NCBI GenBank assembly: GCA_023384675.1
Contig: JAHDVK010000007.1
Location: 1-64,000, forward strand
Direction: 5' to 3'
From: Bryobacteraceae bacterium
Lineage (GTDB): Bacteria; Acidobacteriota; Terriglobia; Bryobacterales; Bryobacteraceae
DNA: 64,000 bases
Position 1 is the first letter of the stretch; each line of letters opens with the position of its first letter. A program made the translations under genes and the position numbers. Positions 39,284-47,155 of this stretch are shown here, in pieces. The notes beneath the pieces are model-generated. The model was given only the letters and a program-made list of their open reading frames with translations. It was not told the origin of the DNA and ran no database searches.

Positions 39284-41632
39284 TCAGAGCGGCGGCGGCC
39301 AGACGAATGCCAGGCTGCGCCGGGGTGAGATGAGTTCCACACTGATCCGGTCCGGCGAAGTGGCTACGGGGCCGGCTATGAAATACTCGGCGCCGTCGCG
39401 AGCTTCGAGGCAGCTCAACCGCAAGCGGGCCGGAGCGGGCCGGGAGGCGTCGTAGTCATAGCAGGCGGCAAGCCAGTCAGGCCGCTCGCCGGCGGCGGGT
39501 AAAGGGTACGCATCGAGACGGCCCGCAAGCCGCAGTTGATCGAGAAGATCCCGGCCGAATCCCTGGGCGCGCAAGTCGACAGTGGCGGCGATCGAGGCGC
39601 CCGCCAGGGGAACTCGGTCCACCCGGCCAAGCAGGCGGTAGTGGGGGGCGCCGGCGCGCAACTCCACGCTGGCGCGGCCCTGGAAGTGGGCGGCGTCGCG
39701 GCGCAATTCGAGCCAGGGGATGTCGATTTCCGTGCCGTCCCAGAAGGCATGCAAGCGAAGCCGCTCGTACGCCTCGCCGCCGAGTTGGAACTGCCGCGCG
39801 TCGAGTTGCAGATCCAATCCGCGGCCGGCCAGCCACGGCGGAAGGCGCGCGGCTCGGCGGAGAGTGCGGTCGAGGAAGGACGAGGGGCGGTCGACGGCGG
39901 GCCGCAGTACGGCTTCGAGTTGCCCGGAGTCGAGCTCGGGGGTCTGCATGGCGAGCCGCAAGGGCCGCTGCGAGGAGGGGTCGGCGTCGGCGCTAGCGAT
40001 GGCGTCCATCTCTCCCCAGCGCAGGGTCGCCTTGCGGACCGACCACCGCGGGCCTTTGACGGTCAGGGGTGCGCGGACCAGCCGGACCGGGCCGGGAACG
40101 CCAGGGACTTCGCACAGTACATTCTGCAGCAGTAATGCCGCGACCCAGACGCCATCCGCGGCCCCGGATGCGGTGTCATAACGAAGGCTGCCGCCGAGAG
40201 TTCCCTCCCGGCATTGCTGCAAGGGCGCGGGCGCGGCGGAGGCGGGCAGGTCGCGCAAAGCTGTGTTGAGTTCATCGAGCGGCAGGGAGGGGAAGCTCGC
40301 CTGGAAGGACAGCGCGCCGGAGGGGGCGGCCCAGCGTCCGGCGAGTTCGGCCGTAGCGCCGCTGGGGGTGGCCAGCGTAGCCGGCAGCAGTTCGACGGTC
40401 CCCGCGGCCAGGCGAACCGTGGCCTTTTCGATCAGCACAGGCCCGGCGGAACGCAGGCGCACTTCGGCATCGCGCAGTTCGACATCGCCATTCAGGGAGC
40501 CTTGCCGCGGCAGCGCAATCGCTCCATGGAGGGTGCCCTCGATGGAGAAGCCGGGCGGGGTTTCGGCGCCCAGCCTGCGGGCGATGTCCAGAAACGTCGC
40601 CGCGGGGATGCCGTTCAAGGTGAAGGCGGCCTCCACTTCCGGCCGGGTGTAAAGGGAGGTTACGGCCATCAGGATGGTGAGCGGCGAGTCGTGTTCCTCA
40701 CCTTGCTCCACAGTGCGCAGCTCGAGCTGTTGCCGGCCCAGACTCAAATCGCCTTGGAAGGGCAGTACCCATTCCTTGCCGCGCGGGCCGAAACGCCCGC
40801 CGCGGTCGAAGCCTTCCAGTTCGAGGCGTCCGAGCAGCTTCAGATTGTCTGGGGGGCCATCGAGTCGAACGCGGGCGCCGAGTCTTCCCTGGATGCCCAG
40901 GTCGCGGCCGGCGAGCAGGATAGCCACCTCGCTGGCGGCGCTTCGTTCCAGCTCGATTTCGACGTCGGCGATGCCCGGTTGATCGGCCAGAGGCCTCCAC
41001 TGTCCGCCGCCGCTAAAGCGGCCGAAACCCTGTTCCGAGCGGTCGGTCCTGGCGGGCGAGGCCTCGAAACTCCAGCGCAGCGAGCCACCCTCGCGGCTGG
41101 GGGGGCTGATGTCGAGATCCACCGTATTGAGAAAGAAAGGCGACTTCAATGTGCCCTGGCGGAAGTTGATCCGGCCGCTGCGCAGAGAGAAGGACGGGGC
41201 GTGGCGCTGCGACTTCATGCGATCTTCGACCTGCCGCAGCAGGACACCCGCGTTCCAGCCCCGCGCGTCATCGCGGCTCAGGTTGATGCTGCCTTCCACC
41301 AGCCGCAGAGAGGCGAGCACCAGCCGGCGGCGGAAGAGCGACGACCAATGGATGCCCGCCTGCATCTCCGTGACGTAAGCGAACGGTTCGAGGCCAAACT
41401 CCGGGTCTTCGGGAATCACCAGGTCCGTCGCGGAAAGACCGATGGAAGGAAACAGCGTGTAGCGGACTTCGCGGAGCGTAACGGGCCGGCCCAACTGTTC
41501 ACTCAGCGCAGCTTGCAGAGGTTCGCGCAGAGCCCTGGCCTCGAACTGAGGCGCCAGGAGCGCCGCAATCAGAAAGAGCACGGGCAGCAGCGCGAGCGTC
41601 AGCAGGAGACGTTTCAGCCATTTCCGTTTCAT
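39284..41632 (-). CDS. AsmA-like inner-membrane-anchored protein
   Basis: 782 aa. One N-terminal membrane helix (about 8-28), then EARALREPLQAALSEQLGRPVTLREVRYTLFPSIGLSATDLVI, the diagnostic start of AsmA-family proteins. The rest is a long repetitive beta-rich body. Related proteins bridge the periplasm and move lipids to the outer membrane or limit outer-membrane assembly. The start overlaps the mocA stop by 4 bp (ATGA), placing it at the end of an xdhC-mocA-asmA-like transcript, an unusual pairing with molybdenum-cofactor genes. Confidence 0.8.
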   Translation of the reverse strand: MKRKWLKRLLLTLALLPVLFLIAALLAPQFEARALREPLQAALSEQLGRPVTLREVRYTLFPSIGLSATDLVIPEDPEFGLEPFAYVTEMQAGIHWSSLFRRRLVLASLRLVEGSINLSRDDARGWNAGVLLRQVEDRMKSQRHAPSFSLRSGRINFRQGTLKSPFFLNTVDLDISPPSREGGSLRWSFEASPARTDRSEQGFGRFSGGGQWRPLADQPGIADVEIELERSAASEVAILLAGRDLGIQGRLGARVRLDGPPDNLKLLGRLELEGFDRGGRFGPRGKEWVLPFQGDLSLGRQQLELRTVEQGEEHDSPLTILMAVTSLYTRPEVEAAFTLNGIPAATFLDIARRLGAETPPGFSIEGTLHGAIALPRQGSLNGDVELRDAEVRLRSAGPVLIEKATVRLAAGTVELLPATLATPSGATAELAGRWAAPSGALSFQASFPSLPLDELNTALRDLPASAAPAPLQQCREGTLGGSLRYDTASGAADGVWVAALLLQNVLCEVPGVPGPVRLVRAPLTVKGPRWSVRKATLRWGEMDAIASADADPSSQRPLRLAMQTPELDSGQLEAVLRPAVDRPSSFLDRTLRRAARLPPWLAGRGLDLQLDARQFQLGGEAYERLRLHAFWDGTEIDIPWLELRRDAAHFQGRASVELRAGAPHYRLLGRVDRVPLAGASIAATVDLRAQGFGRDLLDQLRLAGRLDAYPLPAAGERPDWLAACYDYDASRPAPARLRLSCLEARDGAEYFIAGPVATSPDRISVELISPRRSLAFVWPPPL

Positions 41633-42246
41633 GGCGGGGAGATCTCTCCGGTCAGGCGGCGGTAGTCCTCCGGGGTATCCGCATCCCGCAGAATGCCGGG
41701 GTCTTCCACATCCACGTCAATGGTCCGCTCAACGTGGCGGCGCAGCACATCCCGCGCGGAACCCTCTGGGGGCAGGGCGAGCAACTCGGGGATCAGGGCG
41801 GCGGCGAGCAAGACGGGATGACCCTTCCGGCCCCGGTGGCGCGGCTGAAGAACCAGGGTTCCGGCTGGAGCGGCCTCCCAGGCCGCACACAGGCGGATAA
41901 TCGATTCCTCCTGAATCGCTGGAATGTCCACCGGGTGAAAGAACGCGGCGCTTGGGTGGGGAGCCAGCGCGCGAAGGCCGGTCTGAAGGGAGGATAACTG
42001 GCCGCATTCCGGCTTCGGATTCAGGACCAGCACGGGAGCGCCGGGACGCTGCAAACCCCGCGCGACGGCTTCGGCCTGATAGCCCAGCACGGCGATCACG
42101 CGACGGCAATGCGGAGAGAAGAGCCGGACGAGCCGGTCGAGAAACGTCTCGCCCTCGAACTGAAGCAGCGGCTTGGGAGCGCCCATGCGCGTAGAGGCCC
42201 CGCCCGCCAGCAGGACGGCAGCGAATTCAGGAGGGCCGGGCTTCAC
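41629..42246 (-). CDS. mocA: MocA-like molybdenum cofactor nucleotidyltransferase
   Basis: 205 aa. NTP-transferase start AAVLLAGGASTRMGAPKPLLQFEGETFLDRL, then CGQLSSLQTGL, FHPVDIPAIQ (PVD metal/nucleotide site) and GRKGHPVLL. This is the CTP:molybdopterin cytidylyltransferase (MocA) pattern; a generic MobA-like transferase is the alternative. It overlaps xdhC upstream and the AsmA-like gene downstream by 4 bp each. MCD cofactor is used by xanthine/CO dehydrogenase-type enzymes, which fits the xdhC neighbour. Confidence 0.8.
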   Translation of the reverse strand: MKPGPPEFAAVLLAGGASTRMGAPKPLLQFEGETFLDRLVRLFSPHCRRVIAVLGYQAEAVARGLQRPGAPVLVLNPKPECGQLSSLQTGLRALAPHPSAAFFHPVDIPAIQEESIIRLCAAWEAAPAGTLVLQPRHRGRKGHPVLLAAALIPELLALPPEGSARDVLRRHVERTIDVDVEDPGILRDADTPEDYRRLTGEISPP

Positions 42247-43079
42247 TTGAGCAGCGCTTTCAACTCTTCGTGCGCAAACACGGACTTCGCGAGCGCGCGC
42301 CAGGCAGGGTCCGGGTTGCGGCGGACGGCGATCATCTCAGCGGCCACGGCGATGGCGATCTCCTCGGGGGTGATCGCGCCGATGTCCAGGCCCATTGGCG
42401 CGAACAGCCGGTGGAAGGCCTCCCGGGCAATCCCTTCCTTCTCGAGTTCTTTCACCACCGCAATGGTCTTGCGCTTCGACCCGATCATGGCGATGTAGCG
42501 CGCGGGCGTGGTGATGGCCCAGCGCAGCACCCGCATGTCGTCGCGATGACCGCGCGTGACGATGATCAGATAAGAAGACCCGTTCACGTTCAACTTGGGG
42601 AAAGCGTCCTCGTATTCCTCCGCATACACATCATCGGCCATGGGGAAGCGTTCGCGGTTCGCGAAGCTCTCGCGGTTGTCGATCACGGCCGTGGAAAAAC
42701 CGGCCAGCGCGGCAACCTGGCACAGGCTTTTCGAAATGTGTCCGGCTCCGAAGATGAACGCGCGGGGGTGAGGAAGCAGCGGCTCGATGTACACATCGAG
42801 TTGTCCGCCGCAAATGAGTCCATTGTCGTAGGCCGCGTCCTGCCCGAGATTGAACTGCATGCGGCGGGGCTTTTCGGTTTCGATGACTTCCCGCGCGGCG
42901 GCCCAGACATCGGCTTCGACGCAGCCGCCGCCGATGGTGCCGGCCATGGTGCCGTCGTCACGCACCAGGATTTTCGCCGACTCATAGCTGGGAATCGACC
43001 CGTTCACTTCCACAATCGTGGCCAGCGCGCACTTTCGCCCCTCGCGGCGCAGGCGCACGGCTTCTTCGAGCAGGTCCAT
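42243..43079 (-). CDS. xdhC: XdhC/CoxI family molybdoenzyme maturation protein
   Basis: 278 aa. N-terminal XdhC domain: CALATIVEVNGSIP, TMAGTIGGGCVEADVWAAA. C-terminal Rossmann domain: PRAFIFGAGHISKSLCQVAALAGF, VIDNRESFANRERFP, YLIIVTRGHRDD. XdhC binds the molybdenum cofactor and delivers it, after sulfuration, to xanthine-dehydrogenase-type enzymes. No such enzyme subunit is in the window, so this is an orphan maturation set with mocA. A perfect TATAAT lies 10 nt before the ATG and there is no clear ribosome-binding site. Confidence 0.88.
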   Translation of the reverse strand: MDLLEEAVRLRREGRKCALATIVEVNGSIPSYESAKILVRDDGTMAGTIGGGCVEADVWAAAREVIETEKPRRMQFNLGQDAAYDNGLICGGQLDVYIEPLLPHPRAFIFGAGHISKSLCQVAALAGFSTAVIDNRESFANRERFPMADDVYAEEYEDAFPKLNVNGSSYLIIVTRGHRDDMRVLRWAITTPARYIAMIGSKRKTIAVVKELEKEGIAREAFHRLFAPMGLDIGAITPEEIAIAVAAEMIAVRRNPDPAWRALAKSVFAHEELKALLK

Positions 43080-43104: not shown

Positions 43105-44316
43105 CTACCGGCGCCCTTCGTTCAGCAGAACGTGGATCGCCGGCACTTTGTAGTTGTAGGGCTTCACCAGGATATCGAAGCGGCCATTTCCCGTGAGATC
43201 GGCGATGCGGGATTCGTGGTTGTCCAACCCCGTAGCGACCACCTCGCGGCGGAAATTCCCTTGGCCGTCACCGAGGAAGATCCAGGTCTTCGATGCGGGG
43301 TTGCCGCCGTTCAGGCGCATTTCGCCCAGGAAGATGTCCATGTGGCCGTCGCCGTTGAAGTCCACAATGTCGAGCGAATGGGCGTTGTCGACGTCCGCGA
43401 GTTGATGCGGAATCCAGGCGCCTTTCACCCACTCGTACCAGATCAAGGGACCTGTGCCATCGCCAATCGAGAGGACCACTTCCGGCCTTCCCCCCGCCTT
43501 GAGTTGACCCACTGCCGAACGCGAGAAGTGAAAGCTCGAATCGATATCGTTGGGCAAGTAACGGTCGCCGCCGAGATGTTTGAACCACAGCCCGGCGCCC
43601 ACCAGATCCGGCTTGCCGTCGAGGTCGATGTCGGCGAAGGCAAGGCCCTCATGCTCATTCGTCCGCCGCCAAGCGGGCGGATTGCCGCGCTGCCGCGTTT
43701 CGCTGTCGGCCGAGTATTCGTAGAGCGTGGTCAAGGGCCATTCGCTCGCGGCTTTGAGATTGGCGGGCGCCCGCGCCAGCATCAGGCGCTGCGCACCCTG
43801 ATTCCAGAACACCAGTTCGCGTTTGCCGTCGCCATCGGCGTCCACCCACATCACATCGTGGTGCTTGTTCGCCCCGCTTTTCTTGACGTTGCGGCGGACC
43901 CAGGGTTTGCGCGGATCGAGATCGCGGCCGGGATTCTCGTACCACCAGATCTCATTTGAACGCCCGTCTCCACCGGCGATGAAATCGAGATGGCCATCGC
44001 CGTCGATGTCGCCGAACGTGGCGCCCGCCTCGATGCGGCGGATCTCATTATCTATGACGATACGTTGCCAGCCATTCCCTTGACGGATGTAGCCCACCAC
44101 GCTCGGCGCGGCGGTCCGTTCGGTGATGACGAAATCGTTGACGCCGTCGCCGTTGATGTCGAAAACCGCCGAAGCGGTCTGCTGATCCCCGGGGAAGGGC
44201 TTTTCGAGTCCGCCGGTATCGGATGAGACCAGCCGCCAGCCGGGGGCGACGACAGGCGCGTCACTGGTTTGAGCCCACAGCAGCGCGGCAAACAGGAGAG
44301 GGTATGTTCGGACCAT
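43105..44316 (-). CDS. secreted FG-GAP/VCBS repeat protein
   Basis: 403 aa. Signal peptide (MVRTYPLLFAALLWAQ). The body is a beta-propeller with at least six calcium-type loops: DINGDGVND, DIDGDGHLD, DADGDGKRE, DIDLDGKPD, DFNGDGHMD, DLTGNGRFD. Such integrin-like propellers bind ligands or carry enzyme activity; no catalytic site is visible. The start was set at the leader methionine. It is divergent from the HAD gene with a 65-bp gap. Confidence 0.8.
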   Translation of the reverse strand: MVRTYPLLFAALLWAQTSDAPVVAPGWRLVSSDTGGLEKPFPGDQQTASAVFDINGDGVNDFVITERTAAPSVVGYIRQGNGWQRIVIDNEIRRIEAGATFGDIDGDGHLDFIAGGDGRSNEIWWYENPGRDLDPRKPWVRRNVKKSGANKHHDVMWVDADGDGKRELVFWNQGAQRLMLARAPANLKAASEWPLTTLYEYSADSETRQRGNPPAWRRTNEHEGLAFADIDLDGKPDLVGAGLWFKHLGGDRYLPNDIDSSFHFSRSAVGQLKAGGRPEVVLSIGDGTGPLIWYEWVKGAWIPHQLADVDNAHSLDIVDFNGDGHMDIFLGEMRLNGGNPASKTWIFLGDGQGNFRREVVATGLDNHESRIADLTGNGRFDILVKPYNYKVPAIHVLLNEGRR

Positions 44317-44363
44317 GGAGAAGGCCTCGCAGGCGCACTCCTGCCGGAGTCGCGCGCCCTGTA

Positions 44364-44372
44364 TGCTATCAT
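44364..44372 (+). promoter_or_regulatory. candidate extended -10 (TGCTATCAT) for the HAD gene
   Basis: Nine bases identical to the element before hom at 56115-56123. Nine nt separate it from the GTG at 44382; there is no Shine-Dalgarno in between. Confidence 0.4.
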
Positions 44373-44381
44373 TTGCCGCGA

Positions 44382-45059
44382 GTGAATACACGAGCGAAGT
44401 GGCCCAAGGGGCTTGCCCTGATATTCGACATGGACGGCGTGGTCATCAACTCCACGGACATGCATACTGTCGCCTGGGAGCGGTATCTGGCCGGCCTGAA
44501 CGTGAACGCCAACGGCATCATGAGCCGCATGCTGGGCAAGCGGAACGATCAAATCGTCCGTGACTTGTTTGGCCCGCACCTGCCGCAGGCTGAAGTGGAC
44601 CGGCATGGATCGGCGAAGGAAAGCCTGTACCGGGAGCTCATGACGCCCGTGTTAGAGCAGCATTTGGTGCCCGGCGTCGCCGCATTCGTCCGGGAGGCGG
44701 CGGAGGCGGGGATACCCCTGGCGATGGGCACGAACGCCGAGCCGCTCAACGTCGACTTCGTGTTGCAGGGCGCGGGTCTCGAAGGACTGTTCGGCGCCGT
44801 GGTGGACGGGCATCAGGTGAGCCGGCCAAAGCCCGACCCGGAGGTCTATCTCGAGGCCGCCCGGCGGATCGGAGTGCCGCCGGGAGATTGCATTGTCTTC
44901 GAAGATTCGCCGGGCGGAATGGCCGCCGCGCGCGCAGCCGGCGCCCGCCTGGTGGCCTTGCTCACAACCCTTTCCGAAGCGCCGCAAGCCGCCCTGGCGA
45001 TTCGCGATTTCACCGATCCGCGCCTGCCCGAATGGCTGGCCGCGCAGAGGCCGCTCTAA
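44382..45059 (+). CDS. HAD-superfamily phosphatase / beta-phosphoglucomutase-like
   Basis: 225 aa from a GTG. HAD motif I FDMDGVVINS (nucleophile and general-acid Asp), cap helix region, motif II MGTNAE (a Thr in place of the commoner Ser/Thr-N context), motif III Lys in SRPKPDPEVY, motif IV FEDSPGGMAAARAAG. This is the beta-phosphoglucomutase/phosphatase subgroup. Either a sugar-phosphate phosphatase or a mutase is possible. It is followed after 3 bp by the degenerate kinase gene, so the two are likely cotranscribed. Confidence 0.82.
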   Translation: MNTRAKWPKGLALIFDMDGVVINSTDMHTVAWERYLAGLNVNANGIMSRMLGKRNDQIVRDLFGPHLPQAEVDRHGSAKESLYRELMTPVLEQHLVPGVAAFVREAAEAGIPLAMGTNAEPLNVDFVLQGAGLEGLFGAVVDGHQVSRPKPDPEVYLEAARRIGVPPGDCIVFEDSPGGMAAARAAGARLVALLTTLSEAPQAALAIRDFTDPRLPEWLAAQRPL

Positions 45060-45062
45060 TTC

Positions 45063-46613
45063 ATGAACGAGCTGCTGAGTCCGACACCGCTGATCACCGC
45101 GATCCTCTCGATGGCGGCGGCTTCGCTGGTCTGGTGGTTCCGCGACCAGCGCGTCAACCGGCTGCGTAAGCGAATCGCGGCGATTCAGGCGTTGTCCGAA
45201 GATGTGCTCACGGGCCGTTCGGCGACGGCCGTTCAGGAACTGCTTGCGGAAACCCTCCCCGGCCTGACCGGAGGCGCGCAGGCGCGGCTTTGGATCGCCG
45301 AGCCTTCCACGGGGGAGTTGGAGGCGGCGGACGGGCGCGGTCCAGCAATACCGGCGCAGGGCCAGTCCGACGCGCGCCGGCAGTGCTTCGACAGCGGCGC
45401 TGCGCGCCGCGATGAATCCGGAGACGGGTTGCGCTTGCTCTTGCCCATGCGCACGGAAGGGCGGACGCTGGGCGTCCTGGAACTGCATTGGGCGCAGCGC
45501 ACGCCTCGGATTTCCGTGGAAGAGCAGGCCGCCCTGGCGCACCTTGCCAACCAGATCGCCATCGCGCTGCGGCTTCTGGATCAGAGCCTGCTCCGGGAGC
45601 AGGTGCTTCGCAGTGAACGGCTGGGAGCCGTGGGCCAGCTCATGTCCGGAGTCGCCGCTGAGCTGCAGGAACCGATCGAAGAGATCGCGCGGATCGCCGG
45701 CCGCCTCCAGACATCGGACCCCAACCAGGAGGCCTTCCGTGCGTTGAACGAGTGGAGCGCGGCCGCCACGCAGGCGCTCGACCGGCTGGTGGCCTTCGGG
45801 CGCCCGGCCGAATCGCGGGCACGGCCGGTGGACCTCGGCGAACTGCTCAGAAAGCTCGCCCACTTTCGTGAGCGCACGTGGCGCCTTCGCCAGGTTGGAA
45901 CGCGTTTGGAGTTGCTTTCCGCTCCGCTCACTGTCATGGGCTCGTACGGCCAGTTGGAACAGGCTCTGCTCAGTGTGATCCTGCGGGCGGAGGAATTGTT
46001 GCCGGCGGACGGCGACCGGCGCCTTGCGGTCACCTTGGCCCGGGAGGAAGGGCGCGCCCGTGTGATCGTCGAGTTTGCCCTTGAACAGGAGCCCGGTGAA
46101 TGGGGCCTGTCGGTCGCAAGCGGAATCGCGGGCAATCATGGGGGCAGTCTTCGCATCACCCGGGAGCCCCGAGGAGCGCGTTGCGAGATCAACCTCCCCT
46201 TGCTGAGCGCCGCCTCGCCCGTGAGCCCCTCGCTCACGGAGCCTTCCCGCCCGCTCACCTTACTGGTGCTGGCGCCCGACCCGCACGACAGCCGCCACCT
46301 CGTGGACCTGCTCGCGGCGCGCAATCATCGGGCGGTACCGGTGGCCTCGGATACCGAGGCTCTCGACCTCTGCGGCCGCTTTCGCTTCGACGCCTTGTTC
46401 GCGGCCGTATCTTCTTCCGATCCATCCTGGGCAGGACTCCACGAACGCACACGCCGGCATGTGCCCAGCTTCGTTCTGCTGCCCGACGCCGAAGAAAGCG
46501 CCTCGGTGCCGCAGCCCGCCGGCGGACCGGTTCTCGTGCTGCGCAGGCCGCCCGATCCGGCCGAACTCGGCCGCTTGCTGGTGGAAATCGGAGGCCGCTA
46601 CCCGGGCGCTTGA
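45063..46613 (+). CDS. degenerate hybrid histidine kinase (pseudokinase with pseudo-receiver)
   Basis: 516 aa. One N-terminal membrane helix (about 9-26), a GAF-like domain (about 40-172), then a HisKA-like helix: ERLGAVGQLMSGVAAELQEP. In active kinases this reads GVAHExNNP, so the phosphoacceptor His is Ala199. The ATPase part keeps the shape (SYGQLEQALLSVILRAEELL, SVASGIAGNHGGSLRI) but the N-box Asn residues are Ser304 and Arg308. The C-terminal receiver-like domain (about 397-512) has APD where the acidic pocket should be, Ala448 where the phosphorylated Asp should be, and Arg in place of the Lys. Four separate catalytic features are lost while the fold and frame are kept, so it is probably a sensor or scaffold. 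Confidence 0.75.
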   Translation: MNELLSPTPLITAILSMAAASLVWWFRDQRVNRLRKRIAAIQALSEDVLTGRSATAVQELLAETLPGLTGGAQARLWIAEPSTGELEAADGRGPAIPAQGQSDARRQCFDSGAARRDESGDGLRLLLPMRTEGRTLGVLELHWAQRTPRISVEEQAALAHLANQIAIALRLLDQSLLREQVLRSERLGAVGQLMSGVAAELQEPIEEIARIAGRLQTSDPNQEAFRALNEWSAAATQALDRLVAFGRPAESRARPVDLGELLRKLAHFRERTWRLRQVGTRLELLSAPLTVMGSYGQLEQALLSVILRAEELLPADGDRRLAVTLAREEGRARVIVEFALEQEPGEWGLSVASGIAGNHGGSLRITREPRGARCEINLPLLSAASPVSPSLTEPSRPLTLLVLAPDPHDSRHLVDLLAARNHRAVPVASDTEALDLCGRFRFDALFAAVSSSDPSWAGLHERTRRHVPSFVLLPDAEESASVPQPAGGPVLVLRRPPDPAELGRLLVEIGGRYPGA

Positions 46614-46663: not shown

Positions 46664-47155
46664 ATGGCTATGTCACGTGTTGTCGCTTGTACCTTTCTCG
46701 CATTCGCGCTCGCGGCTGCGTTGACCGCGCAAGGCCGTTACGACGGACCTCGGCCGGAGAAGGCGGATTTGCCGTACCTGCTGCATGCCCGTAATCTCGT
46801 CGAAACCGAACCCGGCGAGGCGGTGATGTCCACGGACAAACGCTTCACCGTATACACGGTCGCCGGCGCGGCTTCGTCAGTGAAAACGCCAGTGCCCGAG
46901 CCGATTTTCCTGTTCAAGTCCGAGCGCATCAACGCCGACCGGCTCTCCCTTTACAAGATGACTGTGGAACGGGGCAGCCGTGTGATTCGCTTTCCCGAAC
47001 GGCCCGGCAAGAACACGCCCAAGCCCGTCTTTCTGATGGTCACACCGCTAGAAAAGGGCCTGTTCAAAGTAGAAGTGAACGAGCCCATCGAAGATGGCGA
47101 ATACTGCCTCACGCCAGACGGCGAGAACATTGTCTTCTGCTTCACCACTTACTGA
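46664..47155 (+). CDS. small secreted protein of unknown function
   Basis: 163 aa with a signal peptide (about 1-22, cut before GRYDG). The mature part has HARNLVETEPGEAVMSTDKRF, a hydrophobic VYTVAGAASSVKTPVPEPIFLF, and a C-terminal DGEYCLTPDGENIVFCF. No family recognised. Two in-frame ATGs at 46664 and 46670 are both possible starts. It lies 50 bp after the pseudokinase and 28 bp before the oxidoreductase, all on the plus strand. Confidence 0.6.
   Translation: MAMSRVVACTFLAFALAAALTAQGRYDGPRPEKADLPYLLHARNLVETEPGEAVMSTDKRFTVYTVAGAASSVKTPVPEPIFLFKSERINADRLSLYKMTVERGSRVIRFPERPGKNTPKPVFLMVTPLEKGLFKVEVNEPIEDGEYCLTPDGENIVFCFTTY

Follow-up and report, generated by a model that had tools for sequence, protein, structure and literature searches.

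Bacteria are known to have both pseudo-histidine kinases and pseudo-receivers, each a recognised class of protein (PMC12632262). The kinase that offers the closest comparison here is DivL of Caulobacter, which has tyrosine at the phosphoacceptor site and, in the published account of it, binds DivK~P while having neither kinase nor phosphatase activity (PMC4211667). On the receiver side there are FrzS, CikA, ShkA and the second domain of PleD, presented in one survey as receiver folds without phosphotransfer residues that act via contacts or ligands; the same survey counts about 6% of the receivers in a representative bacterial collection as pseudo-receivers and describes their switching mechanisms as a mystery (PMC12632262). 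By its counts the histidine is missing from 0.9% of HisKA domains (722 of 76,471) and the aspartate from 2.0% of receivers (3,111 of 152,269) (PMC12632262).

The 64,000 nucleotides of Bryobacteraceae DNA analysed here (the window) encode on the forward strand a protein of 516 amino acids (45063-46613) that joins the two conditions in one chain. Its reading frame is open throughout, with an in-frame stop immediately before the start. What appears to be new is that a protein dead, by sequence, in both halves has been conserved throughout a family of soil bacteria and is linked there to a gene for a HAD phosphatase. No paper on this family was found in the open-access literature searched by title and the start of the abstract. 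I propose, with a probability of roughly 0.55, that the best explanation of the whole is a family of hybrid kinases, dead in appearance, that would serve as membrane-bound GAF sensors or adaptors working via contact, and that the HAD phosphatase is the likeliest thing they touch.

The protein, a pseudo-hybrid histidine kinase by sequence, alignment and AlphaFold2 model, opens with a membrane helix at about residues 8-26 (45084-45140), its limits drawn by eye from the hydrophobic sequence within a model helix of residues 8-49. A GAF domain follows at about residues 54-172 (45222-45578; limits from the model), then DHp-like helices at about residues 177-246 (45591-45800; alignment and model), an ATPase-fold domain at residues 251-381 (45813-46205; alignment and structure match) and a pseudo-receiver at about residues 397-512 (46251-46598; alignment, a separate model and structure match). 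With Pfam at E <= 1, only GAF passes its cut-off (PF01590, 1.8e-6, matched residues 107-169); HATPase_c is sub-threshold (0.15), and neither HisKA nor Response_reg (PF00072) gives a match. The structures say more. The whole protein was modelled with mean pLDDT 88.3 and pTM 0.57, and residues 251-381 match the ATPase domains of histidine kinases (3a0z_B, Z 19.1, rmsd 2.0, 129 aligned). The C-terminal part, modelled alone (pLDDT 86.6), takes the receiver fold (4l85_C, Z 16.2, rmsd 2.1, 116 aligned). Both folds are kept in the models, and the initial annotation was right to see membrane helix, GAF-like, DHp, ATPase-like and receiver-like domains in a single frame. Sensor kinases of the AtoS/ZraS type are the nearest by profile: AtoS is the best NCBIfam match of the window protein (5.7e-16), and among solved chains it is ZraS 9jfj that the family profile matches best. 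Unlike them, the window protein scores 58 bits where the AtoS cut-off is 646, and it lacks the catalytic residues.

It has, in fact, none of the seven canonical ones. Ala199 (45657-45659) stands at the position of the phosphoacceptor His, with the Glu200 that follows it kept; Ser304 (45972-45974) and Arg308 (45984-45986) take the places of the N-box Asn residues; Ala404/Pro405 occupy the positions of the receiver's acidic pair, Ala448 (46404-46406) that of its Asp and Arg495 (46545-46547) that of its Lys. The replacements of His, both N-box Asn and receiver Asp are read directly from the protein; these, and the loss of the Lys, had been reported already and are confirmed. The loss goes beyond that report: the DxGxG (G1) box is absent and the ATP lid is mostly deleted, segment 336-349 (46068-46109) having 14 residues where all 14 canonical outgroup kinases have 34. 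Trp456 (46428-46430), at the D+8 position of the pseudo-receiver, is typical of the family. All seven of the other kinase-like homologues examined in the same genome (nine were found) keep their H-box. An active hybrid histidine kinase was considered and rejected, as His, N-box Asn, DxGxG, full lid, acidic pair, Asp and Lys are all absent. As far as sequence can place it, the protein belongs with the pseudo-histidine kinases, having the fold and ancestry of a kinase with its functions lost (a class defined by its logic and not by common descent), and it sits as well among the pseudo-receivers, with a receiver fold that lacks the key phosphotransfer residues.

Then there is the evidence from relatives. 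When 257 genomes of the window's order were searched with a profile (E <= 1e-62), a homologue turned up in 141 of them and in 50 of 84 genera; of the 163 genomes with completeness of 90% or more and contamination of 5% or less, 93 have one. Ten genomes with fragmentary matches were left out, and the examined set comprises 130 fetched homologues and the window protein. The named relatives are mostly labelled Bryobacterales, Bryobacteraceae, Candidatus Solibacter or Acidobacteria. One family member comes from a metagenome bin titled Bordetella parapertussis (L084); it groups with Bryobacterales proteins, and the record is probably mislabelled.

The His site is something other than His in 130 of the 131 (Asn 42, Ser 24, Ala 22, Thr 17, Gly 12, others 13, His 1), a variety that speaks against selection of any single substitute. 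The receiver Asp is absent from 126 of the 130 homologues readable there and present in four (L244 has a gap). Proline has replaced the second receiver acidic residue in 113/131, the receiver Lys is kept in 86/131, and the first N-box Asn survives in 78 of the 131, the second in 2. The 14 canonical outgroup kinases, every one, keep both His and receiver Asp. Set against the survey rates, a double loss of His and Asp across nearly the whole family is more than chance would be expected to give. A private mutation or a sequencing error in the window is ruled out by losses that are family-wide.

The 127 members from the window's own family all keep three or fewer of the seven residues, and 15 of them, the window protein included, keep none. 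Closest to home, in the comparison that the initial annotation had put forward as a check, the four genomes of the same genus lack His, both N-box Asn, receiver Asp and Lys, two of them keeping the first acidic residue only. The lid segment in the 127 runs from 12 to 34 residues (median 20), so its loss too is graded. Letters that fit DxGxG occur in one of the 127 (L212), outside the aligned G1 box. The initial annotation had spoken of a coordinated loss in the two partners of the phosphorelay. Both halves have indeed lost their residues, but the losses are inherited and come in degrees, from none to three of the seven residues kept, so the window protein marks the far end of a trend rather than the outcome of one event.

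Where the trend began can be seen in a distant relative from another family of the same order (L215, the same protein as L023), which keeps all seven canonical residues and a lid segment of 34 and matches HisKA, HATPase_c, Response_reg (6.9e-14) and GAF in Pfam. It shares domain order and clade with the pseudo-kinases and differs from them in its full residue set and in having no HAD gene that could be found beside it. Such a protein shows that the pseudo-kinases descend from an ordinary GAF hybrid kinase; coming from a distant relative in another family, its intact residues speak to ancestry and do not refute the reading of the window protein as one retained without catalysis. The 131 homologues form one clade against the 14 outgroup kinases (FastTree support 0.997; SH-aLRT 100 in an IQ-TREE of 59 rows). 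Within it, FastTree places the intact protein with three His-less members of another family at a support of 0.32, and a quick IQ-TREE requires two changes of the His; a single clade of all His-less rows is not rejected and fits better (p-AU 0.816), so that the trees allow for one loss of the His or for two. Reading frames around this locus and three others (L236, L242, L253), inspected by eye, gave no lead. The intact protein would be useful as an active comparator.

A protein that has lost so much might be thought simply to be decaying, or to be an artefact of sequencing. Divergence is fast (the window protein is only 36% identical to two of its three same-genus homologues), many genomes are without the gene, and in one of the 131 (L244) it is truncated by internal stops, so gene loss does occur. 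But dN/dS lies between 0.033 and 0.320, always below 1, in the 32 close pairs with finite dS (34 were tried), and dN is below dS in the GAF, kinase-like and receiver-like parts alike wherever dS is finite. For the window gene and the relative nearest to it, which share about 63% identity over the core, dN is 0.305 and dS 1.355, the latter near saturation. Seven of the matches listed by the profile search contain a stop; in six it lies only at the 3' end, which leaves L244 as the one truly interrupted copy. The structure models, moreover, are confident. Decay is barely credible on this showing, and the family is, by the pattern of substitution, under purifying selection.

Some of what has replaced the lost residues is itself fixed widely. 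Among same-family members with a letter at the site, Pro405 is found in 111/126 (Asp in 14/14 outgroups), Trp456 in 118/125 (Gly in 14/14 outgroups) and Arg183 in 121/127 (Gln or His in the outgroups). The earlier judgement that the gene was retained in a non-catalytic role, rather than decaying, finds its grounds here: few canonical residues in any of the 127, dN/dS below 1 and new residues widely fixed. Since catalytic residues are gone and selection has kept the gene, the protein probably signals by touching partners and not by chemistry, and I regard retention in a non-catalytic role that works by contact as very likely. That the role is one of sensing or scaffolding, as had been suggested, is plausible.

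The fixed replacements could be read another way, as a sign that one of the emptied domains, ATPase or receiver, has acquired a new ligand switch or a new chemistry; a small molecule might, for instance, bind close to Pro405/Trp456. There is precedent in pseudo-receivers reported to bind c-di-GMP or quinones, ShkA and CikA (PMC12632262). The ATPase domain, however, can be deleted altogether, as will be seen, and I consider the idea quite improbable. The parallel with ShkA and CikA is in any case incomplete, for there the pseudo-receiver restrains a live kinase, and in this family the kinase half, on the same chain, appears to be dead as well.

Another possibility is that catalysis has not vanished but has been reduced to dephosphorylation of a response regulator. 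HisKA kinases have a phosphatase motif, E/DxxT/N, that begins just after the His, and in 121 of the 127 same-family members the residue after the His site is still acidic. The motif as a whole, however, is complete in only 27 of the 127, compared with 14/14 outgroups, its fourth position in the window protein is Glu203, and neither the G1 box nor most of the lid is left. A kinase acting solely as phosphatase is extremely unlikely, and I reject it on the failure of the motif to be conserved.

If the protein works by contact, the question is with what. The main functional lead is the gene upstream, which encodes a HAD-superfamily phosphatase resembling beta-phosphoglucomutase (44223-45059, forward strand; Pfam PF00702, 2.6e-26). 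Its match to TIGR02009 (2.5e-39) is below that model's cut-off, and homology sets in only near 44406, which makes a GTG at about 44382 a possible true start. The reading frame ends at 45059, 3 bp before the ATG of the pseudo-kinase, the spacing noted at the outset. This is no peculiarity of the window: in 98 of the 128 loci with enough sequence, the next gene upstream, read from the same strand, is a HAD gene. It is not adjacent in the remaining 30, although one of these (L292) is adjacent by match coordinates. In 83 of the 98 a possible in-frame start is no more than 30 nt from the HAD stop, and in 16 there is a 4-nt overlap, counts that lean towards closeness because the start nearest the HAD gene was chosen. 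Across the 98 linked copies the HAD catalytic residues are in place (DxD in all 94 with letters, the other four being gaps; S/T, K and the acidic motif IV residues E and D in 98/98), and the enzyme looks catalytically active.

The two genes do not always travel together. The HAD gene was found in 191 of the 257 genomes (E <= 1e-70), as against 141 for the pseudo-kinase (E <= 1e-62). Twenty HAD loci were picked from genomes outside the 141: in nine the HAD gene is followed directly by a gene for a small secreted protein, in two (L316, L318) by a degenerate homologue of the pseudo-kinase, and in nine by neither, one of these with little sequence left. An obligate partnership is ruled out, since each gene occurs without the other.

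One of those degenerate homologues, L318, leads to an instructive form of the family. It is the same gene as L320, which with L321 represents two species of one genus. Their proteins have 339-343 residues, are encoded directly after the HAD gene in both species, and match the profile at positions 6-221 and 419-508 (or 524). They keep the helix, the GAF domain, the first part of DHp and the pseudo-receiver but have neither the remainder of DHp nor any of the ATPase domain. Identity between them is 73%, and dN/dS is 0.21. In the one genus where this form is found, then, the kinase core is dispensable, the input and the pseudo-receiver being what survives.

The proposal that the family consists of membrane sensors or adaptors can now be put more concretely. 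The membrane helix and the GAF domain, with an OB-fold-like N-terminal region added in many relatives, would receive a signal; the DHp helices would hold the dimer and relay the change; and the locked pseudo-receiver, together with the empty ATPase domain where there is one, would offer the contact surface. The likeliest contact would be the upstream HAD phosphatase, whose activity or placement at the membrane might be controlled in this way, and a second possible contact would be an active kinase or response regulator encoded at an unlinked site. What makes the HAD enzyme the best candidate for a direct partner is that no neighbour is more constant and that it stays beside the form without the ATPase domain, but as a specific claim this is tentative, and I give it rather less than an even chance. 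The active sites of receivers and of HAD phosphatases both employ a phospho-aspartate. From that shared chemistry, a dead receiver may dock on the HAD phosphatase or mimic one of its states.

The main rival to a HAD partnership is an effect like that of DivL, in which a dead assembly of DHp, ATPase domain and receiver exerts a tuning effect by docking on a response regulator or by forming a pair with an active histidine kinase whose gene lies elsewhere, and the HAD gene is a mere neighbour in the operon. As in DivL, the kinase fold is kept, the His is lost and function without catalysis is probable, on the showing of sequence and model; and the published behaviour of DivL, a pseudo-kinase that binds the phosphorylated regulator, provides a precedent (PMC4211667). 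The DHp fold is kept, the model matches DivL itself (4q20_B, Z 17.3, rmsd 7.2, 193 aligned), and an acidic residue follows the His site in 125 of the 131. Unlike DivL, the family has a dead receiver as well, is missing its G1 box together with much of its ATP lid, and usually adjoins a HAD gene. The two species with the shortened protein have kept it despite losing part of the DHp hairpin along with the ATPase domain, which means that the protein can in some cases do without the classical docking helices. Nor did any two-component kinase or receiver turn up among the ten recurrent neighbours, besides HAD and CutA, that were scanned with Pfam. I take a role of this kind to be possible, on the unlikely side.

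To return to the HAD phosphatase as partner, the most specific form of that idea would have a two-component hybrid kinase converted, throughout the family, into a membrane-bound subunit dedicated to regulating the enzyme: the GAF domain (with the OB-fold-like region in many relatives) as input, the pseudo-receiver as output, and the kinase core as a dimer frame that one genus has discarded. In so definite a shape I think it unlikely. What the family supplies is more than 100 natural variants, with a complete hybrid kinase at one end, partial losses between, and at the other end a form with no ATPase domain, together with a short-listed partner gene. It makes directly testable what purpose the frame of a histidine kinase serves when it no longer catalyses anything, and whether proteins of this sort can regulate enzymes that lie outside two-component signalling.

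The added N-terminal region is not present in the window protein. An extension of more than 150 residues is found in 68 of the 131 reading frames; three were scanned against Pfam, and the OB-fold match was just above the cut-off in one and below it in two. OB-fold-like regions of this sort lie in long members at L071:5284-6000 and L068:1735-2520.

Other neighbours recur less often. In 23 loci with wide flanks (the window and 22 named relatives), clustered after ignoring reading frames that overlap HAD, CutA or the focal gene on another frame, the commonest neighbour is the upstream HAD gene (19 loci), then CutA (12); every other non-overlapping cluster is found in at most six. CutA was identified as CutA1 from the one copy scanned (PF03091, 3.7e-33) and lies upstream in 34 of 122 loci of the full set. 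Downstream of the pseudo-kinase, 50 of 125 loci have a gene for a small secreted-looking protein, represented in the window by 163 residues at 46664-47155 on the forward strand, with no match to a Pfam or NCBIfam family. In some of the family the conserved gene order also takes in CutA and the small secreted protein, so the linkage to HAD may reflect no more than a shared operon. Of the ten further recurrent neighbours, nine match other Pfam families, mostly housekeeping (ribose-phosphate pyrophosphokinase, queuosine synthesis, tRNA modification and acylphosphatase among them), and one has no match at E <= 1e-8. The CutA1-like gene stands upstream of HAD in L068-L073, L076-L079, L081 and L085; the order cutA-HAD-pseudo-kinase does not occur in the window. 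Farther upstream there, at 41629-43079, two minus-strand reading frames overlap by 4 nt and, by eye, resemble a molybdenum-cofactor nucleotidyltransferase and XdhC.
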